Of a stretch of DNA of 64,000 nucleotides, positions 3,680 to 40,987 are shown one piece after another (within the stretch, counting starts at the first letter, position 1; each line of letters starts with the position of its first letter). The DNA comes from Sediminihaliea albiluteola (GTDB taxonomy: Bacteria; Pseudomonadota; Gammaproteobacteria; Pseudomonadales; Halieaceae). The notes under the pieces were generated by a model, which made no database searches, was not told the DNA's origin, and was given only the letters and a program-made list of their open reading frames with translations. The stretch spans positions 62,001-126,000 of the forward strand of contig NZ_JACFXU010000013.1 in the NCBI RefSeq assembly GCF_014077625.1, in the 5' to 3' direction. Position numbers and translations under genes: made by a program.

Positions 3680-4579
3680 ATGTCTTACCAGCTCAGCCAA
3701 GACCAAGTAGAACGCTATAAAATCTATGGTTGCCTGTTTCCTCTGGATATTCTGAGCAAGGAGGACGCGTCTCGCCTCAGAGGTGAACTTGAAGACTGCG
3801 AAAAAATGCAAGGTCGTCCTTTAGACCGGCTGCAATCTAACAAAAGCTATCTTCTGTACGACTGGGCCGATGAACTAGTCCATCATCCAAAGATTTTGGA
3901 CGCCGTGGAATCCATTGTGGGCCCAGATATTCTTTGCTACATGACGCAGCTCTTCACTAAAGAAGCAGGTTCAGAAACCTATGTCTCAATGCACCAAGAT
4001 GCTGCTTACTGGGGCATCGAAGCGGATGATGTTATCACTGCTTGGGTCGCTCTGAGTCCTGCCACCGCCAAATCAGGTGCGATGAAAGTTTTGCCTGGCA
4101 GTCACACTCAAATCCTCGAGCAGAAAAACACCTATGCTAAAAACAATTTACTAAGCCGAGGACAGGAAATCGCAGCTGAGCAGCTCGATGAAAGCAAGCT
4201 GGTATATATGGAGTTAGAGCCGGGCCAAATGTCTCTTCATCATTATTTAATGGTGCATGGTTCGGATGCAAACAGCAGTGACGACCGCAGGATTGGGCTT
4301 GCTATCCGTTATGTCGCCGCTAGCGCCAAAAAGCTAGGTAAGCCAGAATCTGCTCTTCTTGTCAGAGGAAAGAATACGAGTAACTTTATTATGGAAAGGC
4401 GCACACGCGGGCTATCGCAGAAAGTTCGTGCCCGCAAACACAGCCAGGCTATCGCTCGCCAAATGCACAATCTTTTTGAACCCAGCAAAGATGCCGCTTT
4501 GGGAGAGAGAATTCGCCTCAAACTTACCAAGACATTGGGACTAACTCTTAGCTATTGGCGCAATCTTCGTGCACGCTAA
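3680..4579 (+). CDS. Phytanoyl-CoA dioxygenase (PhyH) family Fe(II)/2-oxoglutarate oxygenase
   Basis: 299 residues. The double-stranded beta-helix iron ligands are visible: His105 and Asp107 in MHQDAAYWG, and distal His193 in MVHGSDANSS, with Arg204 (DDRRIG) placed to bind 2-oxoglutarate. The HGS-x-N-S spacing is typical of the PhyH family. Such enzymes hydroxylate aliphatic or amino-acid-derived substrates in the cytoplasm; the substrate here cannot be told. The ATG follows a GGGGGAGTG ribosome site. The gene stands alone apart from the two tiny ORFs upstream. Confidence 0.85.
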   Translation: MSYQLSQDQVERYKIYGCLFPLDILSKEDASRLRGELEDCEKMQGRPLDRLQSNKSYLLYDWADELVHHPKILDAVESIVGPDILCYMTQLFTKEAGSETYVSMHQDAAYWGIEADDVITAWVALSPATAKSGAMKVLPGSHTQILEQKNTYAKNNLLSRGQEIAAEQLDESKLVYMELEPGQMSLHHYLMVHGSDANSSDDRRIGLAIRYVAASAKKLGKPESALLVRGKNTSNFIMERRTRGLSQKVRARKHSQAIARQMHNLFEPSKDAALGERIRLKLTKTLGLTLSYWRNLRAR

Positions 4580-27022: not shown

Positions 27023-28030
27023 ATGACGATAAAAGTAGGAGTTAATGGTTTTGGCCGGATGGGGCGCCTGATTTTGCGAGCGGCTTGGGGAAAAGAAAAT
27101 ATTGAGTTTGTGCAGATTAATGATCCCGCCGCTGATGCCGCGACACTCGCGCATTTATTGACTTTTGATTCCGTCCACGGAAGGTGGCTCTACGACGCCC
27201 AGAATGAGGGAAGTGAGCTGCTGATCAATGGCCAGCGTGTTAGATGTAGCAGCAACAAAAGCATTGCCGATACAGATTGGTCGGGCTGTGATGTGGTCAT
27301 TGAAGCGTCGGGGAAGTTTAAGAGTAAAGCTGCGCTGCAAGACTATCTCGCGCAGGGTGTAAAACGGGTAGTGGTCACAGCGCCGGTAAAAGAAGAGGGC
27401 GTGTTGGATGTTGTGATGGGCGTGAACCATCAACTCTACGATAGGGACAATCATCGCATTGTTAGTGCAGCCTCCTGCACCACTAATTGTCTGGCTCCTG
27501 CGGTGAAAGTAATACATGAGAGCCTTGGAATAAAACACGGATCGTTCACGACGATTCACAGTGTTACCAATACTCAGACGATTCTTGATGCAGCCCACAA
27601 GGACCTGCGCCGAGCTCGTGCCTGTGGGATGAGCCTGATACCTACCACCACGGGCTCTGCCACTGCGATCACGCATATCTTCCCAGACCTAGAAGGCAAA
27701 TTGAACGGACAGGCAGTACGCGTGCCCTTGGCCAACGCCTCGCTGACCGATTGTGTGTTTGAGGTAGGACGGGAAACCAGTATTGAGGAAGTGAATAACC
27801 TACTCAAGAATGCTTCGGAGTCTGATCTCAAGGGTATACTTGGCTATGAGGAGAAAGCCCTCGTTTCCATCGATTACAAAACTGACCCGCGCTCGAGCAT
27901 CGTCGATGCACTGTCAACCATGGTGGTCAACGACACTCAGGTCAAACTCTATCTGTGGTATGACAACGAATGGGGTTACGCTAATCGTAGCGCGGAACTG
28001 ATGTGCATGGTTGCCAACCTGGATCGCTGA
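27023..28030 (+). CDS. ArsJ-associated glyceraldehyde-3-phosphate dehydrogenase
   Basis: 335 residues, type I GAPDH. NAD-binding [16 protein letters not shown] is at the N-terminus, catalytic Cys152 is in [12 protein letters not shown], and [11 protein letters not shown] is near the end. The start is the ATG after CGGAG; a 12-codon extension upstream is unlikely. It directly precedes arsJ (10 nt gap). In this arrangement GAPDH makes 1-arseno-3-phosphoglycerate from arsenate and glyceraldehyde-3-phosphate, and ArsJ exports it, which removes arsenate from the cell (established for Pseudomonas). A housekeeping GAPDH is expected elsewhere in the genome. Confidence 0.9.
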
Positions 28031-29521: not shown

Positions 29522-32500
29522 CTATTGGCTATACTGGCCTTCCACATACTTGGGCAGATTGGCCTCGATAAATTTGGAAAACTCCCAGCAGAAACTGATG
29601 ATTGCATCAGCTGCTTCATCTCTCTGACTATCAAGGAAGGCAATCACATACTGTGCATCCGAGCGCAGTAGAAACTTCGCTTGATTAGCTTCGGTGATAA
29701 TATTGTGCACTGTGGCGCCTGCCGCACTGGTGGTCTTTATACTTGCGAAGGCTTTAACTTCCTTAAAATTAATCTGTTTATGCACTTCGGCACTGGGGCC
29801 AGAGATCATTTTAAACACAAGGTTTAGGAAAGTACCTTTTGCAAAGTCGCTATAGAAACCTTCTTTGAAAGCGTCGCCATTGGCCAAGGCCTTGGAGTAA
29901 TCATCAGCGGCCCCAAACAATGTCGAAGGTATGGCATTTACCAGTCGGCCGGCAAAACGTGCAACATGCGGACTATTTACCATCGTTACCAGCACCTTGG
30001 AGCTTTTGAATGAGTTGCCAAGGGCTGCGCCAGCCGGCCCGCCGAGAGCGCCAAAGGCAGCGCCTATAATAGTATCAGTTACTAAGGCCATTCCTCGTTT
30101 ACCACCAGCGTAACTTATCACCCCAGAAATTAAGCCCGAAGAGATGGAGCCTGAAACCATTGTGCTCGAGAGTGTTAATTGACCTGTCGGGTCGGTGTTG
30201 CTTATGGGGTTAGCATGAGCATAGAGGTAGCGGTGTAGCGATGGTGGATCACGCAAGATGCCTTGGAAAGGGTCTCGACTGATAAAACGCCCGGTTGTGG
30301 GGTCGTAGTATCTAGCTCGCAAGAAGCTGAGGTTCTCTTCTGCGCCGGCTTGCTCACCAGCAAATTGATAGGGGTTAGCGCTAGTACCGCTGTGGCTGAT
30401 CAAGCCACCGAAGGCCTCATATGAGTACGAGTCACTCACATCACCCGCTGTATTACTAATGATGCGAATATTTTTTGAAGCATCAGAGTGATACCAGCTC
30501 GTATCACTGCCGTCGCGGATTTCACCTAGTACTTGGTTGCCATAAATATACTCGGCGGAAACGGCTAGCTCGTCTGTATAATCGACCAGCATCTGTGGAA
30601 CTCCGCCAGCACCTAGGGCGTCGACCAAGAAACTACTCTTTGCTGAGCCCACACTGCGGCTGACTCTGTGTCCAACTGCATCGTATTTAAACTGCACTAC
30701 TTGGCTAGGTGTTTCCACAGCACTCAGTTCATGTTCCTGATTGAAGTGGTAAAAAGTCTGGGCTCCAGCATTTTGTCTGACCAGTAAGTTACCGTTGGCA
30801 TCATAGGCAAAGGTGGTGGCGCCAGCTTGTATTAGTTTATCCGCCTCATCATAGCTGTATGTGCTGCGTAAGCCTGCTAAGTTGGTGATGCTGATTCGAT
30901 TGCCAACTGAATCATACTCGTGGCTCAGTGCATAGGTCTTGATGCCCGCGGCTGAAGAGTAAGTCTCGGAAGTCAGCCTTCTCTGGCTGTCGTATGTATA
31001 GTCAACATATGAGTTGTCGGCATGAACAACTTTAATGCGATCCCCGACAGCATTGAGCGTGTAGTTATAGCTAGCCAGCACCTGGCCATGGTTTTTGTGC
31101 TCTAATTCAATTAAGCGGCTCATTGAGTCGTAAGTGAATGTTGATACAACACCGTTTGGATAGCTGATAGATGCCAGATTACCAATGGCATCGTAAGTGT
31201 ATGAGCTTATTCGACCATCCGGGTCCTCCACACTGGCTAGGCGATTGAGCGCATCGTATGTATAGAGTGTGGACCTTGGAGCAGAACCGGGCAGGGTAGT
31301 GCGCAACATCGTTCTATTACCCGCTAGGTCATAGGCGTAATCAATTTTTGTACCATCTGGGTTAGTAGTGTTTATCAGACGGTCATTCAAGTCGTAGCTA
31401 TAGCTGACAGTCCCGATGCCATTCTGAGCTGTTGCCACTCTCCCCGAGAGCGTATGGCTATAGAGCTCCTCACTTCCATCGGCAAAGGTTTTCTTGAGCA
31501 GTTTGCCGGCCGGATCGTATTCATAGCGAGTTTCGTCCCCCTTGGCATCAGTGGAGCTCACTAGGCGACCAGCGTCATCGTAGCCTGCCAATTCTGTAGA
31601 GCCATCTGGGTAGGTCTTGCTGATTTGATTACCCATAGCATCATACTGGAAAGTAGTGGCATTGCCTCGCGCATCGCGCTGCACTAATAGTTTGTTTTCT
31701 GCATCGTATTCGAAGCGAGTGCTGGCACCTGAAGGGTCTGTAATACTAATGACATTGTTGTTGCCGTCGTAGCTGTAACGGGTCGTCCGGCCGAGTTGAT
31801 CGACTTCTTCAATCAAGTTACCAGCGCTATCGTAGTGGCTAAGAATTTCTGTTAAATCAGGAAATATTTGCCGGACTATCCGATTGAGTTCATCGTATTC
31901 AAAGCGAAAAACATTGCCCTTAGCGTCAGTTTTAACTGTCAGGTTGCCCGCAGCGTCATATTTGAACTCAGTTTCAGCGCCAAGTGGGTCAATCAACTTG
32001 GTGTTTCTGCCAGCTTTATCGTATTCATAAGTTGTCGAGTTCCCGCGCGCATCTATCGTGCGAGTAATACGTCCTACAGCGTCATACAGGGTCTGTGTCA
32101 CTGAGCCATCAGGCGCGATAGTTTTTGTACGGCGTCCTAGTGCGTCATACTCATATCTGGTGGTGCCGCCGTTGAATCTGGTCACTGAGCTAAGATTACC
32201 CAGCAGGTCGTATTCACGCGATTCGAGCCTTCCCGGTGCATCTGAAAACTCGATCTCCTTACCCAAAGCATCCATGCTCAGTGAAGTTGTAATACCCAGT
32301 GGGCCGACAATCCGCTCAAGAACACCGGCAGCGTTGTAGTCAAACAGGGTCTGGGTACCATTTATATTTTTCGCCGATATCGGGCTGCCATTTGCATCGA
32401 GTTCAAATGTTACAAGCGCACCGCGGCGATCAATTTCACTGATCACCCTGCCACTGGCGTCATAGCTTGTCTTTGATACGTTGCCCCTTGGGTCAACAAC

Positions 32501-35500
32501 CTCAGTGAGATTGCCATTGGCATCGTAGTGATAGTTTGTAATATGGCCATTGGCATCGCCATGTGCCGTTAGCAAGCCTGCGCTGTTGTATTGGAATTGG
32601 TCCTCTATATCGCCTTGGGCATTAATTCTGCGTAATAAATTACCGCGTGCGTCATACTCAAAGCGGGTTTCACGACCTAATGGATCGATGGAGCGCAGCA
32701 CACGGTCAGCCGAGTCATATTCATATAGGCTGGTCGCTCCGAGTGCATTACTTACACTCAGCATGTTGCCACGGTCATCAAAGCTCCGGCTGACGGTTTC
32801 ACCGGCAGGGTTGGTACTGGTCAACTGGTTACCCGCAGCGTCATAGCTGTATTGGCTCACTCCTCCTAGTGCATCGACGCTTTTTAGGGTGTTGCCACGA
32901 TCATCGTAAGTCACTACCGTGACATTGTCATCAGCATCCCTTATTACTTCCTGCCGCGAGCTTGGATCAAAGCTAAATTCAATTCTACGGCCTTCTGCGT
33001 TGGTCACACTGAGCAGGCGACCCTCATCATCGTACTCATTGCGCGCGACAGGTCGATTCTGCGGGTCGATAATTTCGATTAAGCCATGATTGTGGTTATA
33101 GTTTAGTTTTGTGATATTGCCGGTGGCATCTGTATAGCTTCGGAGGTCGCCATTGCCATCGTAAGTATAAGTTCTTACGCCGCCTGAGGGGTCCGTGACA
33201 TGGGTGATTCTGCCTTGGGTGTCGCGCGTAAAGCTGATGCTTGTACCTGCTGAATGGCTAATCCCACTATCAGAGAAGCTCAGGACATTACCGTTTCTGT
33301 CAGTTATTTTCTGTACACCCTCAGCTATGCTTATCAGGACCTCCATACCATCGCTCGCGGTGTACAAGAATAGATCGGGGTCGAAGGTAGTGGAGCTTAG
33401 ATCATCAAGTAGCGAAACTTCTCCTGGCTGTCCGTCTAGAATCGACAAGTTGTTATTATCTAAGCTTGTCAGTGTACCGAGAGTGCCCGGTCGTGCTTTA
33501 AACTGGGCCTGTAAAGCGGATGCCGGGAATGGCACGATTGGTGATACTTGGGGCTTTACGAGAAGGTCGAACTGCTCAACTCGGCCATTGGGTAAGGTTA
33601 AACTGACATAATGTTCATCGCTGGCGATTAACTGGTATGACAAGCCTGGCTTAAGCACTTGCCAGCCGCTACCCAAGATACGGTTGGCCTTTAGCTTGAG
33701 GCTGCTTACGCCGAGCCGCCAAGCAAAGCCAAAGTCACCAGATGATTTATCACGACTGTCATAGCTTCTTGTCACCTTGATTGGCATGCCGGCCATAGGA
33801 ACAACAAGATCAACAAAGTTGAGACTAAAGTTTCCAACTTTGTAGTCACTATCAACCTGAACAGTTGTCTCAGCAATGCTTTGATTGCCGCCGGTGTCAA
33901 ACACGGTGAGGCGGATGGTGTACAAATCATTGAGTAATAGGGTGGGGTCAAACTGTGCCAGTACGCCATCAGTAATGGCTGTTGTACTGCTGCGTATTGT
34001 AGTGAAATGAGTTTCCCCAACTGCTGCGTAAGCCAGCTCGTACTTGAGGAAGTTAGCATCGCTAGCGCTGCCCATTATCGCAATGGGTTCTGTGACTTTG
34101 CTATGTTGTAATGGTGTGCTTATGGCCGCAAGCGGTGCTTGTTGATCGCCCGTATTGCGCTCGATAACTGTGATGCTGGCCTGTGCATTGATGCCAGCCC
34201 GAGAAGCAGTAACAGTAAACTCTCCAGCAGAGGCCGATGTGAAATTTGGCCCGCCAGTCCAGTTAACGATGCCGCTCAGTTTTTGGCTGCTACCATCTTC
34301 AAATATGCCAATGGCTTCGAGGCTTACTTGTTGATTGGTCAATACTGTAGAGAGTTTTGGTTGCAGCACTATCTCAGACAGAGTTAGGTTGCCATCAATA
34401 CCATCGCAATCCTGATCAATGCCATCCCCTGGTGCATCCGCAGCCCCCGGATGAATGCTGGCGTCATTATCGTTGCAGTCGCCTTCATTTGGCGTAAAGC
34501 CATCGCCATCCTTATCGATATCTCCGGGGGCAGGGCCTGTTGAAATGAGCAAGTCGACTCGGCCCCCAAATTCAGCCACTGAACCGGCAGAGGGTGTTTG
34601 TTTAGTCACAGAACCAGCGGCAATGCTGGGATGGTGCGTGAACTGTTTGTGACCTACTACTAAGTCGCTAGCGCTCAAGCTTGCTTCAGCATCGGTTTTG
34701 CTTTGACCAACAACATCCGGGATAGTTACCGGGTCACCTACTTCCAGCGTGTAAGCCTGCGCTGTGGCAAAGCCGATGCTGTCATAAGCCAGAATATTCA
34801 CCGGGTAAGAACCCTTAGTGTTCGGCAACCAGCGCAGCACGCCGGTGGTCGGGTCGATGGTCATGCCATGGGGTGCCTCAGTCAGCATAAAGCTGAGGCT
34901 ATCACCCAGGTCGTAATCGATGACCCGGGGTGCATACTCGTACTGGAAGCCGACGGTGGTGAGTGTATCGGGCTCGCTCAGGAAAATCGGTGCCACACCG
35001 TCCGGCTGCACATCAAAATTGACAGTAGCGAGGTTCGATTCCAAGTCGCCATCGCTGGCTTTGTAAGTAAAGCTGTCGGTGGTGCCAGCCAGATTAAACT
35101 CAGCGCGGCTGGATATTAGGTTGTAGCCGTTATGACCGGGTTGCAGCCACGCAGGCCTTGGATTGGAGATTATCGTCGCGTCATCTCTGACCATGGTCTG
35201 ATTAAAGACCCACTGATTGCGCAGCGGCGGTGCTGGAGGCAGTGGATTCGCTGCTGTTCCCTGCCAAACACGCGTAACACCTGCCAAACCACTGGAATAA
35301 GAAGAGATCAATTCTGCGTGGCCATCACCATCGACATCGGCGATCGTGAGAAAGCGCTGTGAGATTGAGTAGCGGCTGATTGGCTCGAAGTGTAAAAGTG
35401 CGCCATCACGCCCGTCAAAAATGTAAACACCCTGATTGTCGGCAGTGCTAGGAGGCATCAAGTGAATAACGATGTCTATTGCACCGTCACCATTGGCATC

Positions 35501-38446
35501 AAAAGCCGTGATATTTTCGCCGTGGTTTGCGTGTCCGGTTACAAATTCGGGGATGTCCTGATGGCTCCAAAGAATAGAGCCATCATTGTCATAAACAACG
35601 GTGTAGCCACTGCCGCCATCGATCATCTGGGTATAGGCAAATTCTACCTCACCGTCACCGTCAAAATCGGCAACGGCTATCTGGTTTCTGGGCATAGTGC
35701 CGGGGTTGGGTTTCTTCCAGATCAGTGTACCGTCGTACTTGAATAGATAATTATGGGTCCAGTCACGTGCAACGATCTCCGGCCAGGGGTCTGAATTAAA
35801 GTTGGCCACGGCGCTATAAAGGTGTGGGTGATTACCGTACCTTGGCTCGGTTGGCAGTACAAACTTGGTGTTGCCCTCGTGATCAATCACTGAGGTGTGC
35901 AGAATGACCTCCATTTTCCCATCAAGGTTCAGGTCCGCAACCACGGGTGGTTGCTCATCGGCATTGCCACTGTAATACTCCCCGACATGCTCCCACTTGA
36001 TACTGCCGTCAACACTGTTATAGACGGTGAGGACGTGCTGGATTGTGCCATTCACAACGTTGCCGATCTTGCCAGTCATCAGGATTTCAACCCTGCCGTC
36101 ACCGTCCAGATCAGCGAAGGTGGGACCGGAGTGTTGATAGTCCATAAAGGCGGGATTTAGATACGCCGAAGTTTCTGAACCACCGTTTCCTGGCCAGGCA
36201 AGGGTGCCATCATGGTGGATGGCCATCAGGTGCTGACCATCGAAATTCCCTCCTTCGGCCTCTGGAAAGCGATTGCGCACTACGATGATCTCAAGGTCGC
36301 CATCACCATCGATATCTAGCAATCCAGGGTGCGAAAAAGTTTCTGCACCGCCGCCGTCCACAACGTCCTGGCTTTGATTCATTATCGGGCTGCAATCTGA
36401 CGCCTTGATTATCCAGATGGTGTCTATGAATAAATAAGGAGTGACTCCGCCAATGCCCACGATTTCAAGCTCGCCATCATTATCAACATCACCCACAGCC
36501 AGGCTGCCCTGATGCAGATAATTCCCGCCATCATCCTTACCGATCTCACACTGCACTTCCAGCTCAACCTTGGCGTTGCCGGTAGGTTTATCGGGGGTAT
36601 AGTCAAATGACCCATCACTGCGAAAGTCCAAACTGCCTTTGGCTACGCTCGATACCAGTGAGGTAGTCAGCGGGTCAGTATCAGGGTCAAAATCGTTGCC
36701 GAGCACACCGGGTGCAGCAACACTCAAGGTGTCGCCCATACGCACTTGGTAGAGGTCATCTGAGGCCACAGGCGCTCTGTTTACATGACTTACCGTGGTG
36801 ATGAAGCTGCCAAAGTCCGCCGCCCCATGAGGGTCGCTGACTTTGACCGCCACATCGTGGGCTCCGACCTGGGCCGCTGCTGGGCTCCAGTTGATGGCAC
36901 CATTGACCTTATCAATGGACATTCCTGCTGGCGCATTGATCAGTTCAAATTGCAGCGGGTCATTATCTGCATCGCTAGCTGTGGCCTGCACACTCAGCGA
37001 GTTGCCCCACACCAAGCTTTGCATACCTGGCACAGTCAGTTTCGGTGCCGAATTAGCCGCTGCAAGGGCGACTGCTACGTTAACCGTCACAGTAAAGGTT
37101 TTACTGTCCTGTAAGCCGCCGCTGTCGGTAACGCGTGCTGTCACGCTATGGCTGCCAAGATCAGCACCCGATGGGGTCCAGCTCAACAGGCCGCTGGTAG
37201 GGTCAATCGTCATTCCGACAGGCGCCGCTGTCAGAGAAAAACTCAACACATCACCCGCATCTGGGTCAGTTGCAAACAGCCGTGTATTAAATACTGTGTT
37301 GGCCTGAACCAGTCGCTTGCCCGGTGGGATTAAAGTGGGTGGATTGTTGCTGCTGGCTTCCACTACATCGATCTGGAAAGACTCAACATCAAATAGCCCC
37401 TGCAGGTCACTTGCCCGCACGATCACATCATGAATACCCAGTTGGCTTTCACTTGGCGTCCATGAAATCACCCCACTGTCTGCGTCGATACTCATTCCAC
37501 TCGGAAGCTGGTCTAACGAGTAAGTCACAAGGTCGCCTTGATCGGGGTCAAGCGCATGCGCGGTCAGACTAAAATCCCGCTCTACAACGGCCTGTTGATT
37601 GCCAATCGCCGTCAGTAGTGGTGCTCGGTTTTCTACCGAAGACTGTGCCGCACAAACAGTGTCCAGCACATCAACCTTTGAATCCTGGTTACAATCAGGC
37701 TTGCCCGGTGCTTGTTGACGCTCAAGGATCTGGCTAACGATGACAGGAATGTCCGCTGCGTCGACCTTGCCGTCATTATTGGCATCACCCGGCAATGGGG
37801 CTGCCTGCAGCAGCGACGGGCTTAACAGCAAGCCGGCTAAAAGCAGCGAGAGCATAGTGCTTGCGGGCCTGCTACGTATGGCTAGCCAGCCCAAACTTGC
37901 TAGCATGGCAATGAGTGCAAATAGGAAGATGTCGGCCATAACAGGTATGGCGGTCACCGGGTTTGGCGGGGGCAGTGTCCCAAGCACGTTGACGCTGCCG
38001 TTTAGCAAAGAGCTTGGCGCTACCGCTTGGGCTTGAGCATTTGCCAATAGTAGGTTTTCAATGACTAATGGGTATTTACCTTCCGCGGCATCTTCTGCCA
38101 CAGCAATACCTAAGTTGAGCAAATTGCCAGAAGCGATTGTATTCACTGCGGGGGAGCTTAATACAACTCTCAGGCGCCCGGTGCTGACTAATTGCCAATC
38201 CAGTGTATGAGCGGTAGCAGCAGCACCGGCAGATAGTGTGGAAATCGTCAAGGCATCGGCATCAAATACTAGGTCGAATTGCTGCGCTACAACGCTTCCA
38301 TCACTGAGCCAGTCAAATGGAATAGTAATTGTTGAGCCAGGTTCAGCATTTTGCTTGGCAAGGCTCAGGCTGGGAGCGGCAAAAAGTATTTGTGAAAAAA
38401 ATAACAAGCATATGCCTGTGACAAGGCCGAATGATTTTGCTTGCAT
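29522..38446 (-). CDS. Giant secreted RHS/YD-repeat protein with cohesin-like, dockerin, FG-GAP and PASTA modules
   Basis: 2974 residues. A signal peptide (1-23) is followed by a cohesin-like domain (about 24-155). IPVMADIF plus a hydrophobic helix and RSR (about 164-192) resembles an IPTL-CTERM-type anchor. A second signal-like helix (LSLLLAGLLLSPSLLQAAP) and a dockerin-like pair of Ca loops (DANNDGKVDAAD, DCNQDSKVDVLD; about 219-265) come next. Then three He_PIG/Ig-like repeats (about 275-550), a cadherin-like segment, FG-GAP repeats (DxDxDGxxE; about 632-1060), another Ig-like repeat, PASTA (about 1237-1300), a MopE-like Ca motif (DKDGDGFTPNEGDCND; about 1307), the RHS N-terminal shell (about 1530-1700) and some 40 YD repeats. 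The core LRARYYDPTTGRFISRDPF lies near 2705, and a 220-residue unrecognised C-terminus follows NTDPTGQ. It is exported and probably surface-located; a toxin-delivery or adhesion role is inferred. Confidence 0.92.
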   Translation of the reverse strand: MQAKSFGLVTGICLLFFSQILFAAPSLSLAKQNAEPGSTITIPFDWLSDGSVVAQQFDLVFDADALTISTLSAGAAATAHTLDWQLVSTGRLRVVLSSPAVNTIASGNLLNLGIAVAEDAAEGKYPLVIENLLLANAQAQAVAPSSLLNGSVNVLGTLPPPNPVTAIPVMADIFLFALIAMLASLGWLAIRSRPASTMLSLLLAGLLLSPSLLQAAPLPGDANNDGKVDAADIPVIVSQILERQQAPGKPDCNQDSKVDVLDTVCAAQSSVENRAPLLTAIGNQQAVVERDFSLTAHALDPDQGDLVTYSLDQLPSGMSIDADSGVISWTPSESQLGIHDVIVRASDLQGLFDVESFQIDVVEASSNNPPTLIPPGKRLVQANTVFNTRLFATDPDAGDVLSFSLTAAPVGMTIDPTSGLLSWTPSGADLGSHSVTARVTDSGGLQDSKTFTVTVNVAVALAAANSAPKLTVPGMQSLVWGNSLSVQATASDADNDPLQFELINAPAGMSIDKVNGAINWSPAAAQVGAHDVAVKVSDPHGAADFGSFITTVSHVNRAPVASDDLYQVRMGDTLSVAAPGVLGNDFDPDTDPLTTSLVSSVAKGSLDFRSDGSFDYTPDKPTGNAKVELEVQCEIGKDDGGNYLHQGSLAVGDVDNDGELEIVGIGGVTPYLFIDTIWIIKASDCSPIMNQSQDVVDGGGAETFSHPGLLDIDGDGDLEIIVVRNRFPEAEGGNFDGQHLMAIHHDGTLAWPGNGGSETSAYLNPAFMDYQHSGPTFADLDGDGRVEILMTGKIGNVVNGTIQHVLTVYNSVDGSIKWEHVGEYYSGNADEQPPVVADLNLDGKMEVILHTSVIDHEGNTKFVLPTEPRYGNHPHLYSAVANFNSDPWPEIVARDWTHNYLFKYDGTLIWKKPNPGTMPRNQIAVADFDGDGEVEFAYTQMIDGGSGYTVVYDNDGSILWSHQDIPEFVTGHANHGENITAFDANGDGAIDIVIHLMPPSTADNQGVYIFDGRDGALLHFEPISRYSISQRFLTIADVDGDGHAELISSYSSGLAGVTRVWQGTAANPLPPAPPLRNQWVFNQTMVRDDATIISNPRPAWLQPGHNGYNLISSRAEFNLAGTTDSFTYKASDGDLESNLATVNFDVQPDGVAPIFLSEPDTLTTVGFQYEYAPRVIDYDLGDSLSFMLTEAPHGMTIDPTTGVLRWLPNTKGSYPVNILAYDSIGFATAQAYTLEVGDPVTIPDVVGQSKTDAEASLSASDLVVGHKQFTHHPSIAAGSVTKQTPSAGSVAEFGGRVDLLISTGPAPGDIDKDGDGFTPNEGDCNDNDASIHPGAADAPGDGIDQDCDGIDGNLTLSEIVLQPKLSTVLTNQQVSLEAIGIFEDGSSQKLSGIVNWTGGPNFTSASAGEFTVTASRAGINAQASITVIERNTGDQQAPLAAISTPLQHSKVTEPIAIMGSASDANFLKYELAYAAVGETHFTTIRSSTTAITDGVLAQFDPTLLLNDLYTIRLTVFDTGGNQSIAETTVQVDSDYKVGNFSLNFVDLVVPMAGMPIKVTRSYDSRDKSSGDFGFAWRLGVSSLKLKANRILGSGWQVLKPGLSYQLIASDEHYVSLTLPNGRVEQFDLLVKPQVSPIVPFPASALQAQFKARPGTLGTLTSLDNNNLSILDGQPGEVSLLDDLSSTTFDPDLFLYTASDGMEVLISIAEGVQKITDRNGNVLSFSDSGISHSAGTSISFTRDTQGRITHVTDPSGGVRTYTYDGNGDLRSYTDATGNITKLNYNHNHGLIEIIDPQNRPVARNEYDDEGRLLSVTNAEGRRIEFSFDPSSRQEVIRDADDNVTVVTYDDRGNTLKSVDALGGVSQYSYDAAGNQLTSTNPAGETVSRSFDDRGNMLSVSNALGATSLYEYDSADRVLRSIDPLGRETRFEYDARGNLLRRINAQGDIEDQFQYNSAGLLTAHGDANGHITNYHYDANGNLTEVVDPRGNVSKTSYDASGRVISEIDRRGALVTFELDANGSPISAKNINGTQTLFDYNAAGVLERIVGPLGITTSLSMDALGKEIEFSDAPGRLESREYDLLGNLSSVTRFNGGTTRYEYDALGRRTKTIAPDGSVTQTLYDAVGRITRTIDARGNSTTYEYDKAGRNTKLIDPLGAETEFKYDAAGNLTVKTDAKGNVFRFEYDELNRIVRQIFPDLTEILSHYDSAGNLIEEVDQLGRTTRYSYDGNNNVISITDPSGASTRFEYDAENKLLVQRDARGNATTFQYDAMGNQISKTYPDGSTELAGYDDAGRLVSSTDAKGDETRYEYDPAGKLLKKTFADGSEELYSHTLSGRVATAQNGIGTVSYSYDLNDRLINTTNPDGTKIDYAYDLAGNRTMLRTTLPGSAPRSTLYTYDALNRLASVEDPDGRISSYTYDAIGNLASISYPNGVVSTFTYDSMSRLIELEHKNHGQVLASYNYTLNAVGDRIKVVHADNSYVDYTYDSQRRLTSETYSSAAGIKTYALSHEYDSVGNRISITNLAGLRSTYSYDEADKLIQAGATTFAYDANGNLLVRQNAGAQTFYHFNQEHELSAVETPSQVVQFKYDAVGHRVSRSVGSAKSSFLVDALGAGGVPQMLVDYTDELAVSAEYIYGNQVLGEIRDGSDTSWYHSDASKNIRIISNTAGDVSDSYSYEAFGGLISHSGTSANPYQFAGEQAGAEENLSFLRARYYDPTTGRFISRDPFQGILRDPPSLHRYLYAHANPISNTDPTGQLTLSSTMVSGSISSGLISGVISYAGGKRGMALVTDTIIGAAFGALGGPAGAALGNSFKSSKVLVTMVNSPHVARFAGRLVNAIPSTLFGAADDYSKALANGDAFKEGFYSDFAKGTFLNLVFKMISGPSAEVHKQINFKEVKAFASIKTTSAAGATVHNIITEANQAKFLLRSDAQYVIAFLDSQRDEAADAIISFCWEFSKFIEANLPKYVEGQYSQ

Positions 38447-38509: not shown

Positions 38510-38620
38510 AGCCGAGTAATTGCCCATGCCGAGTACATGACATTGCGTTCCATTTGATGACATTTGTACCGTAAACTGCGTAAACTCAAGGTATTAGCAA
38601 AATACTTAGTGAATGAAGTG

Positions 38621-40987
38621 ATGAGGGAAGTGGATGCAGGGAATGAGCATCTAGAGTACCAGTTTGAAAATTATCGCCTTTCAAACTGGGAACAAGTCTA
38701 TTATGAAGACGGTGAACGCCAAGCTGTCAGTACTAAGCCATATCACCTACTACTACTGCTGGTAAAAAATGCTGGCCGCGTAGTCAGTAAAAGCGAAATC
38801 ATTGAGACGGTTTGGCCAGGGCAGGTTGTGACGGATGCCGCTCTTGCCAAGCAGGTTCTGCGCCTGCGCAAGCTCTTACAAGATCACCAGCGTGAACAGC
38901 CCTTTATAGAAACCCACCGTGGTATTGGCTACCGATTTACCCCGACAGTAAGCATCCTGAAAGCTAAGCCAAGCAAAATAAAAAGTAATCCTAGCCGGAG
39001 TGTTCGCCGCTGGTATTGGCTTGCGGCTATGTTCGCCCTTGGCCTTTTATTTGCGACACTCTGGCTCAAGAGTGGCCTTGGTGTTAGCGGCCCGTCGCCT
39101 AAACAGGCAATCGCAGAGCTGGCAGCAGAGCGTCCGATCAAAGTTGCCGTGTTGCCACTAGGTGCTGAGCATAACTGGTTGAATGAAGGCGGCCGCAATT
39201 ATCTGGCAGAAACACTGAGCCAAGACCCAAAGATCAGCTCCGTCAGCCCAGCAGCTAAGTGGCTTACAGAGACATCTGGCGAGTCACTTGCAGTTAATCT
39301 AAGCACCCAGGGGAACTTGGATTACAGTTTTCTCATCAGTATTTTTGAAGAGGAGGGCGAGTATCGCGCAGCGCTGAAGTTGCGCACGGATACCGCTGTT
39401 CTTTCAGCCACTGATATTCAGGCTAAAAGTCTTCCCAATTTGTTTGATAAAGCCGGTCACTGGGTGCGCAACAACATCGCTGTACACGCTAAGCTGGATG
39501 ATTTGGCCCCAGCTTCGGCAAGCCGTATCGCTGATGCGGCCTTGCAGAGCTATCTACAGGGGCAGTTTGAAGTTAATGCCAACGAAAACAGAATAAAGGC
39601 AGGGGAGTATTTTCAGGCAGCCGTGGCCCAAGACCCAGACTTTCTTGAGGCTTGGACAGAATTGGCTCGCAATCATATGGCTCTTGGCGAGTTCCAAGAG
39701 GCGATTTCTATTGCCCAGACTGTATTGGCCAAGTCTGAGGAACAGCTCTCTGCGGAGTTGTTGCTGAACTTAAACTACATCATTGGAATTTCTTACGGTC
39801 GCCAACATAAGGTGGATGAAACACTCCACTATTTAAAGCGAGCGCGAGCGCTGATTAGTGAATCTAATGACCCCTATTCTAAGTTGGCCGCTCTGGAAGC
39901 ACTCAGCGCTCTTGCCATCTATGAAAAGCGCTATGCTGATGCCGAAGCACTGGCAATTGAGTCTCTAGGTATAGCTGAGAGTGATTTTCACCTGCCTAAT
40001 TATCTCGCCGATCTGCATTTCACAATCGCCAGAGCTATTGATGCAAGTGGCGACCCTGAGCGCTCTTTAGAGCATATTAATCAGGCGCTGGATTTTTGGC
40101 GACAAAGCGATAATGCCAACGGCATGATGAAAGCTTATTACTTACTGAGCCATTATTATTATCAGATGGGCTTTATCGATGAGGGTATACAGCTATTGGT
40201 GAAGGCTGAGCCCTACTTAAACCGCGCTTCGCTGTATTATGAAAAGGCCTTTTTTCTGCAAAATGGAGGCTTGCTGCTGAATTTAAGGGGCCAGTTTAAG
40301 CACGCTAATCGCTACGCTGATCAGCTCAAATCATTTGCCATTGATAGCAATAATCCGATTTACCTGGTGTTGAGTGAGTTGATTGGCGTGCACCAGCTAT
40401 ACGTTCAGAACCGTTTCTCTGAAGCCTCTGAGCACGCACTTGCTATCTTGAGGAAGTTTGAATCTGAAGACTCCGTGCAAGCATCCTTTCCAGATATCAT
40501 GGCTCTGGCTATCCTGACCTCTTCGCGTGGCAAGCCCGTGGCTGAAACACGAGCTTTAATTGACAGCTTTGACGCCAGCTACAAGAGTCACCGTGAACGC
40601 TTGCGTAATGATTTGAGCAGAAGCGAGGCTCATCTGGCCATAAGAGAGGGGCGCATTGACCAGGGACTGCGCTTGTTACAAGAAAGTGAAACTAACAACC
40701 GTAACAAAGGCTTTCGGCACATCGGCGATTATATTGCCACCGAAGCTCTGGAGGTTCTGCTGCAGCACCCTGAGCGAGAGTACCAGCAAATACTGGCCCA
40801 GACTGAACAAAGCGCGGGCTATGGCTATCTCTTATGGAAGCTTAAAGCGCAATTTGTGGCCCGCGAAGGTGATTATTTTGCAGCAGCCCGTATCTTGAGC
40901 GAAAACAAGCTAAAGGCCAATCAGCTTTGGGGTGCTGAGGATCAGTTGCTGTTGGAAGAATATCAGGCTCGCTCCGCGGGCTTATAG
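38621..40987 (+). CDS. CadC/ToxR-type membrane regulator with TPR ectodomain
   Basis: 788 residues from ATG (MREVDAGN); a TTG 57 nt upstream is the alternative. Residues about 10-108 form an OmpR-type winged helix (GRVVSKSEIIETVWPGQVV, TDAALAKQVLRLRKLL, IETHRGIGYRF). One membrane helix (WYWLAAMFALGLLFATLWL, 131-149) separates it from a periplasmic part. This has a CadC-like alpha/beta segment (PIKVAVLPLG to about residue 275) and then TPR-like helical repeats (LEAWTELARNHMALGEFQEAISIA and many more) to the end. It would bind DNA directly while sensing in the periplasm. It is divergent from the giant RHS gene, its most likely target. Confidence 0.88.
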   Translation: MREVDAGNEHLEYQFENYRLSNWEQVYYEDGERQAVSTKPYHLLLLLVKNAGRVVSKSEIIETVWPGQVVTDAALAKQVLRLRKLLQDHQREQPFIETHRGIGYRFTPTVSILKAKPSKIKSNPSRSVRRWYWLAAMFALGLLFATLWLKSGLGVSGPSPKQAIAELAAERPIKVAVLPLGAEHNWLNEGGRNYLAETLSQDPKISSVSPAAKWLTETSGESLAVNLSTQGNLDYSFLISIFEEEGEYRAALKLRTDTAVLSATDIQAKSLPNLFDKAGHWVRNNIAVHAKLDDLAPASASRIADAALQSYLQGQFEVNANENRIKAGEYFQAAVAQDPDFLEAWTELARNHMALGEFQEAISIAQTVLAKSEEQLSAELLLNLNYIIGISYGRQHKVDETLHYLKRARALISESNDPYSKLAALEALSALAIYEKRYADAEALAIESLGIAESDFHLPNYLADLHFTIARAIDASGDPERSLEHINQALDFWRQSDNANGMMKAYYLLSHYYYQMGFIDEGIQLLVKAEPYLNRASLYYEKAFFLQNGGLLLNLRGQFKHANRYADQLKSFAIDSNNPIYLVLSELIGVHQLYVQNRFSEASEHALAILRKFESEDSVQASFPDIMALAILTSSRGKPVAETRALIDSFDASYKSHRERLRNDLSRSEAHLAIREGRIDQGLRLLQESETNNRNKGFRHIGDYIATEALEVLLQHPEREYQQILAQTEQSAGYGYLLWKLKAQFVAREGDYFAAARILSENKLKANQLWGAEDQLLLEEYQARSAGL

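Follow-up and report, generated by a model that had tools for sequence, protein, structure and literature searches.

A single reading frame on the minus strand (29522-38446) of the 64,000-nucleotide stretch of DNA analyzed here (the window) is open throughout and encodes a protein of 2974 aa. A sequence-only reading had described this polypeptide as two exported proteins joined, a cohesin half followed by a dockerin-RHS half, and as anatomy this description is well supported by the features collected in Table 1. The Ig, FG-GAP, PASTA, calcium-motif and RHS modules that it listed are all called by Pfam or NCBIfam, and Pfam calls Big_9 in addition to He_PIG. The Rhs core scores 66.4 bits with TIGR03696 (cut-off 32.5; residues 2676-2756), which places the protein among the RHS proteins. 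Homologues of the neighboring winged-helix and TPR regulator are also found at L034, L036 and L005, three loci that carry related proteins (see below).

Table 1. Features of the window at and next to the 2974-aa reading frame.
Feature	Coordinates	Strand	Basis
P0001, 2974-aa ORF: cohesin, hairpin, dockerin, Ig, FG-GAP, PASTA, metal motif, RHS, variable tail	29522..38446	-	Pfam and NCBIfam
N-terminal signal peptide, residues 1-23, site LFA|AP	38378..38446	-	hydropathy; aligned -3/-1 site in 6/6
Cohesin domain, residues 27-154	37985..38368	-	PF00963, 37.6 bits; fold Z 19.8 to CaCohA2
IP motif, residues 167-168; P168 invariant, preceded by I or V	37943..37948	-	6/6 sequences
Hydrophobic helix 1, about residues 169-190	37877..37942	-	KD15 peak 2.51; model helix 172-191
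Basic loop R191-S-R193	37868..37876	-	1-5 K/R between both hydrophobic segments, 6/6
Hydrophobic helix 2, about residues 198-213, internal signal-peptide-like	37808..37855	-	KD15 peak 2.11
Predicted signal peptidase I site A215|A216	37799..37804	-	-3/-1 rule satisfied in 6/6, same aligned column
Dockerin, residues 219-265	37652..37792	-	PF00404, 39.9 bits
First He_PIG Ig domain, residues 275-361	37364..37624	-	PF05345
FG-GAP repeat region, best stretches of two models (711-789, 1033-1053)	35288..36316	-	PF13517, PF01839
PASTA domain, residues 1240-1303	34538..34729	-	PF03793
MopE-type metal-binding motif, residues 1323-1350	34397..34480	-	PF11617
RHS part, residues 1536-2756, Rhs core at its end	30179..33841	-	PF20148, PF05593; TIGR03696
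218-residue tail beyond the Rhs core	29525..30178	-	no Pfam match at E 0.01
Neighbor: divergent winged-helix and TPR regulator	38564..40987	+	PF00486, PF13424

Profile search upheld both the cohesin and the dockerin call, each lying above its Pfam gathering score. The cohesin scores 37.6 bits against a cut-off of 24.1 (PF00963), and its predicted fold is close to those of CaCohA2 (6kgf; Z 19.8, rmsd 1.6, 133 residues aligned) and of 2xdh, a non-cellulosomal cohesin from Archaeoglobus (Z 18.0, rmsd 2.6, 128 residues aligned). The dockerin match (PF00404, residues 219-262) scores 39.9 bits against a cut-off of 22.9 and spans profile positions 1-48 of 57, i.e., it is incomplete at its end. Its two calcium loops (D221/N223/D225/D232 and D251/N253/D255/D262) are accompanied by C252 and C265, and the loop residues and both cysteines are identical in the six sequences compared below. 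A dockerin-only phmmer query of the PDB returned nothing at E 0.1; with a profile of the whole N-terminal block, the hits were cohesins, a small number of dockerins and Ig domains from an adhesin.

Cohesin and dockerin counts were obtained for five genomes that carry this gene, a set to which the genome of L034 does not belong. At E 0.01, PF00963 matched one place in each of the five, namely this gene, and PF00404 matched this gene alone in four of them; the fifth, G025, gave no PF00404 match at that threshold, despite calcium loops that are present by eye. Thus, any dockerin partner from the same cell would come from this gene, unless it is too divergent for the model. A cellulosome combines a multi-cohesin scaffoldin with several dockerin enzymes; the host genome has one cohesin place and one dockerin place at E 0.01, and a single cohesin in each of the five genomes agrees with the earlier statement that the pair occurs outside any cellulosome setting.

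Homologues and the mid-chain hairpin

When residues 1-276 were sought in 58 genomes, matches were found in the host and in two others, over residues 14-267 and 10-267. Profile matching at E 1e-5 across 140 family genomes, with at most 14 candidates scored per genome, gave full-length matches in five (the host, G025, G036, G430 and G435), and 11 further family genomes matched in the Ig domains only, from position 262 onward. A public genome scan added L034 (an Oceanospirillales MAG), L036 (Haliea sp. E1-2-M8) and L035 (Halieaceae BB37); of its at least 61 loci, three have the full layout and most others, among the matches listed, match the dockerin region alone. The G435 stretch is the same ORF as L036, L129 comes from G430, and L035 is taken, from its sequence, to equal G025. 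The continuous layout is present in one frame in six distinct sequences. L036 (2897 codons) and L129 (2979) are full-length through the RHS end, L035 and L005 run off their contigs, and the frame of L034 breaks after ~640 codons. Across the N-terminal block, four of the five other junction carriers are 31-46% identical to the window protein. Among 390 genomes of the order the host gene was the sole match, the other carriers being absent from the same-family part of that set. A plasmid search gave no match, and a search of viral contigs gave one, to the dockerin region.

The continuous N-terminus in all five homologues argues against a recent fusion. The sequence-only reading had also raised separate genes for the two halves: neither a cohesin half nor a dockerin half was found alone in the 140 family genomes at E 1e-5, and one split counterpart occurs in another phylum (see below). 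In L046 and L089, a cohesin-like segment adjoins a dockerin in one chain without a hairpin, and a hydrophobic start lies within 90 codons of the dockerin at 8 of 58 dockerin loci, among the matches listed.

Cohesin and dockerin are separated by two hydrophobic segments (163-192 and 194-216) that flank R191 and R193, the second ending LQA|AP. All six sequences have the same order of elements at this junction: (I/V)P is followed by two hydrophobic segments with one to five K/R between them, then by a signal-peptidase-type site and, directly behind it, the dockerin. This includes the mid-chain order of motif, helix, basic residues and helix that was read by eye in eight midcut-by-XrtH proteins of G072 (see below). 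The residues just ahead of the internal site are LQA, ARA, VQA, AQA, AHS and SQA, so that in every case position -1 is A or S and the residue at -3 is permitted, right behind helix 2. The residue past the site is A, A, Q, Q, Q and Q, and each sequence has that same residue past its N-terminal site. In L034, the loop contains a single basic residue, and position -2 of the internal site is an R. The -3/-1 rule is a weak criterion alone, since all six sequences satisfy it at 11 of 343 gapless columns; the internal site is therefore informative only through its position right after helix 2. Among these 11 columns, columns 23 and 215 directly follow a signal-like hydrophobic segment, as judged by eye.

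Mean pairwise identity among the six sequences is 24% in the signal peptide and 23% in the hairpin (helix 1 to helix 2), versus 47% in the cohesin, 74% in the dockerin, which is the best conserved portion of the N-terminal block, and 49% in the next Ig domain. The hairpin is thus as divergent as the signal peptide, suggesting that it acts as a signal in which the pattern matters and the letters do not. Residues 164-216 are not an ordinary domain, even though the N-terminus is continuous in every homologue: they were modeled as two separate low-confidence helices, and they diverge as a signal peptide does. The tripartite anchor of IPVM motif, helix and RSR that had been proposed here stands as far as its parts are concerned, i.e., the IP motif, the helix and the basic residues, but the IPTL-CTERM model omits the site even at E 1. 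From the sequence pattern, we infer that signal peptidase I may cleave at A215|A216 and that the hairpin would span the membrane twice.

An internal start at Met198, which would make two genes of one ORF, is not supported as a shared feature: helix 2 lacks a Met in two of the six sequences, L034 and L129, and no clear Shine-Dalgarno sequence was seen by eye ahead of the codon in the window.

Exosortase H, structure prediction and a two-gene counterpart

The host genome encodes XrtA and XrtH, the latter at 214 bits, and two of its other proteins end in VPTL-type signals. XrtH was found in 73 of 140 family genomes (72 above the cut-off), in three of the five searched carriers (a count that excludes the genome of L034) and in 70 of the 135 other family genomes, showing no association with the gene. 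It was not found in the carriers G036 (100% complete) and G430 (91%); G036 has solely another exosortase-like gene, and G430 has no exosortase at E 0.1. TIGR04174 (IPTL-CTERM) matched five places in the host genome at E 1, none of them at this gene, and the IP motif, at residue 167 of 2974, is not C-terminal as that class demands. NF033207 (midcut-by-XrtH) remained below its curated 45 bits, scoring 14.2 with the whole protein and 19.4 in a genome scan whose lax threshold (E 10) also produced matches in 6 of 14 control genomes. Among the relatives' N-terminal blocks, L005 scored 23.1 bits with this model, and L034, L035 and L036 were not listed up to E 1. With XrtH in only three of five carriers and both models below their cut-offs, a role for XrtH is still conceivable but is weakened as that of a required partner. 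The internal signal-peptide pattern is common to all six sequences, which makes signal peptidase I the more economical cutter and XrtH an optional one in some hosts.

Mid-chain signals of this kind were also seen elsewhere. At E 1e-5, NF033207 matched in six of 369 class genomes, the host included, and only G072 had matches above the cut-off, in eight proteins. By eye, these resemble the window protein in having a V/IP motif, a helix, basic residues, a second hydrophobic stretch and an exported domain; unlike it, they have frames of only 185-254 codons and no cohesin or dockerin that could be seen. Furthermore, an RHS protein of G318 (a 1546-codon frame) contains IPTLGEW, a helix, RRSR and a second helix ending ARA, followed by further RHS repeats. 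An XrtH-like gene lies just upstream on the other strand, at 40.3 bits versus a family cut-off of 86. When the G318 hairpin was compared with plasmids, one Nostoc YD-repeat protein matched, over query residues 64-117, behind the hairpin.

AlphaFold2 with a four-row alignment gave a pLDDT of 76 and a pTM of 0.51, with a good cohesin and a poor dockerin that was left unplaced. A 50-row alignment raised these values to 87 and 0.75, with the dockerin blocks at pLDDT 91-96 and the hairpin at low confidence (helices 172-191 and 198-206). In the latter alignment, 43 of the 50 rows are dockerin-only stretches from public-scan loci, chosen by loop pattern and thinned by hand from 79, and one cohesin-only row strays into the dockerin columns. 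By simple arithmetic, one confident body of ~135 of the 253 residues bounds the pTM at ~0.53, and ~190 residues in fixed relation give 0.75. Since the observed value exceeds that bound, the excess would have to come from a defined position of the dockerin with respect to the cohesin. The 50-row model thus implies that the dockerin is placed against, and may bind, the cohesin of its own chain, as read from the pTM rather than from coordinates or PAE. AlphaFold2 has been exposed to many cohesin-dockerin complexes, which weakens this argument.

The split counterpart is found at L038, in Acanthopleuribacter pedis (Acidobacteriota). The start of a 2163-aa protein there is signal-like and leads into Dockerin_1 at 23-74 (26.9 bits); teneurin-type domains, RHS repeats with a YD shell, and a pretoxin HINT domain are also present. 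The YD part of this protein is 24% identical to that of the window protein, a level that YD repeats in general may show. An astacin-PKD protein that runs off L038 begins some 600 bases further downstream on that strand, and a segment of it is 30% identical to the window cohesin over 131 residues but scores 18.0 bits with Pfam, under the cut-off of 24.1. If the two halves in the window are partners, one would expect just this arrangement, in which an exported RHS protein starts with a dockerin and the following gene encodes a cohesin. The pair shares with the window protein the signal peptide, the dockerin right behind it, the later RHS shell and a cohesin-like segment close by, here in the adjoining gene; it differs in that there are two genes and that the cohesin lies inside an astacin-PKD protein. 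Hence, this gene pair looks like a split version of the two halves, although it is one case with a weak cohesin.

Proposed cleavage and re-joining, and the alternatives

We hypothesize that one gene yields two secreted products: signal peptidase I would cut the polyprotein after A215, and cohesin-dockerin pairing would bring the halves together again; we give this a little less than an even chance. The chain would be exported by Sec and lose its N-terminal signal peptide (A23|A24). The cohesin would then fold outside the inner membrane, with helix 1 stopping transfer and the basic loop staying in the cytoplasm. Helix 2 would restart export as an internal signal peptide, and cleavage after A215 would release, in equal amounts, a small membrane-held cohesin and a dockerin-Ig-FG-GAP-PASTA-RHS protein of ~2760 residues, which calcium-dependent pairing of cohesin and dockerin would clip onto its co-made anchor. 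Where the host also encodes exosortase H, this enzyme may use the IP motif to cleave the cohesin half further and transfer it to the surface. The fuller version of this route is more tentative, and we consider it less likely than not: the hairpin would be split by signal peptidase (and by exosortase H in some hosts), the halves would be re-joined non-covalently so that the giant RHS protein is held at the surface by a matched 1:1 anchor, A. pedis would make the same pairing from two genes, and the RHS protein of G318 would be an independent case of mid-chain cutting. Overall, we favor cutting and re-joining over an uncut chain, over the lack of any pairing and well over a polymer.

The chain might instead stay whole, with the hairpin in the inner membrane, both flanks outside and the cohesin locking its own dockerin. 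The within-chain docking implied by the 50-row model fits such a clasp, as does the failure to find XrtH in two of five carriers. A hairpin of this kind needs no signal-peptidase-type site, yet one is kept behind helix 2 in all six sequences; the clasp would seem redundant next to the existing covalent link, and Acanthopleuribacter has separate genes. We therefore regard it as unlikely.

It is rather unlikely that the two modules do not pair at all, the cohesin being an adhesin-like beta-sandwich, the dockerin a calcium-binding spacer, and the chain perhaps cut and never re-joined. Dockerin-like modules are widespread, as the prevalence of dockerin-only matches in the public scan illustrates, and the dockerin profile match lacks its end. 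Against this, the two modules are kept together and are single in the carrier genomes, the dockerin tops conservation in the N-terminal block, the pTM rises in the 50-row model, and dockerin and cohesin-like genes adjoin in Acanthopleuribacter.

The protein could also be a divergent midcut-by-XrtH protein that is cut mainly by exosortase H, with signal peptidase in a secondary role. The XrtH of the host, the invariant P168 and the weak NF033207 scores of the window protein and L005 all point this way, but the lack of a detected XrtH in two of five carriers and scores under the NF033207 and TIGR04174 cut-offs make it improbable.

The sequence-only reading suggested head-to-tail polymerization, in which the cohesin binds the dockerin of another chain to build a surface fiber. 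With one module of each kind per chain this would be feasible, and no other partner was found in the genome. The same-chain docking implied by the model favors closed 1:1 units, and a cut at A215 would part cohesin from dockerin and so prevent chains, leaving the polymer very improbable. Finally, an assembly or sequencing error that joined two genes, as the second signal-like helix in mid-chain might suggest, can be dismissed, because the junction recurs in five other genomes, four of which are 31-46% identical to the window there.

Comparison with known systems

One report describes cohesins and dockerins outside cellulosomes as having no known function (PMC5244752). If cutting and re-joining holds, these modules would gain a testable role in re-attaching a precursor after its cleavage. 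Bacteria would then also provide a case of polyprotein logic with 1:1 stoichiometry built in, and the mid-chain signals of NCBIfam would have a reason, i.e., why the chain is cut and what holds the second half. In open-licence papers, we found none on "midcut-by-XrtH", none that brings together PEP-CTERM, cohesin and dockerin, and no description of a cohesin-dockerin-RHS protein with a mid-chain cut signal. Searches of the open-licence literature for XrtH, exosortase H or IPTLxxWG returned nothing relevant, and "IPTL-CTERM" was not found in the part of its exosortase literature that was covered. Open-licence titles combining bacterial polyprotein, signal peptidase and internal signal sequence concern viruses, yeast and mammalian cells.

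Two elements of the proposal are already known: NCBIfam has a name for mid-chain XrtH signals, and dockerin, cohesin and Rhs modules are combined in single chains of clostridial scaffoldins (PMC6780208). These scaffoldins, ScaO and ScaP, come from Clostridium alkalicellulosi and Acetivibrio (PMC6780208, PMC3413522). As far as the accessible descriptions go, they differ from the window protein in being parts of cellulosomes, occurring with peptidases and among several scaffoldins, and no mid-chain hairpin is mentioned there. Cohesins and dockerins outside cellulosomes have been described in print, with unclear function in the portions available (PMC9012536, PMC5244752). The window protein resembles them in that both Pfam cut-offs are passed and the fold is like those of CaCohA2 and 2xdh; it is unlike them in having one of each in one gene with a signal-like hairpin between.

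IPTL-CTERM proteins and exosortase H sorting (TIGR04174/TIGR04177) share with the window protein the order of motif, helix and basic residues, but its motif lies in the middle of the chain, and the model does not list it. It has the RHS repeats, Rhs core and variable tail of RHS/YD-repeat proteins (PF05593, TIGR03696), with the difference that its RHS part would be the cargo of a dockerin half. A parallel to the proposed cut is fbcH of the Bradyrhizobium cytochrome bc1, whose precursor is cut by signal peptidase at an internal signal peptide to give two exported proteins; unlike the window protein as we propose it, that precursor involves no cohesin-dockerin re-joining.

Modules of the window gene and a divergent regulator

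By eye, the FG-GAP region of the window gene appears to be inserted within a Big_9/cadherin-like domain, whose opening part occupies residues 556-631 and whose typical closing part lies at approximately residues 1115-1150. Every one of the six homologues (the window gene included) has C252 and C265 of the dockerin, both in the region of its second loop; this suggests that the two cysteines form a disulfide. The homologue in L034, an Oceanospirillales MAG contig, shows an apparent frame break near position 4300, after ~640 codons, which may be genuine or an assembly artefact. Homologues of the neighboring winged-helix and TPR regulator adjoin the homologous gene in L034, L036 (Haliea sp. E1-2-M8) and L005; none was found in L035 or in the fetched stretch of L129.

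Locations of the features discussed
Feature	Location	Strand	Remark
Tail past Rhs core	window 29525-30178		218 residues
Putative Big_9/cadherin-like domain with inserted FG-GAP region	window 34997-36781
Dockerin with C252 and C265	window 37652-37792
Winged-helix + TPR regulator	window 38564-40987	+	divergent
Dockerin-RHS and astacin-PKD genes, Acanthopleuribacter pedis	L038:1443-13035
RHS protein	G318:C1:2292344-2296984 (L131:4345-8985)	+
Small protein	G000:C6:331935-332174 (L006)		88 residues

Related arrangements in other loci

The first A. pedis gene encodes a signal peptide, a dockerin and a teneurin-like RHS region with a pretoxin HINT domain. A weak cohesin is encoded by the astacin-PKD gene that comes after it, and this pair is possibly a split version of the window gene. 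In a Prevotella MAG (L041), a short frame with a signal-like start and a few YD-type repeats before its dockerin is a further YD-dockerin link.

The G318 RHS protein carries an IPTL-helix-RRSR-helix-ARA segment amid its RHS repeats, and directly upstream, on the opposite strand, is an XrtH-like gene (40.3 bits, under the 86-bit cut-off). The L006 small protein consists of a signal peptide, VPTL motif, helix and KKGG, stops after the first helix, and scored 38.4 bits against midcut-by-XrtH (NF033207), slightly under the 45-bit cut-off.

The tail past the Rhs core

At E 0.01, Pfam matched nothing in the tail of the window gene. Between this tail and window position 27676 there is no minus-strand ORF of at least 100 aa. 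The tails of L036 and L129 appear to differ from this one, as is the case among polymorphic RHS proteins.
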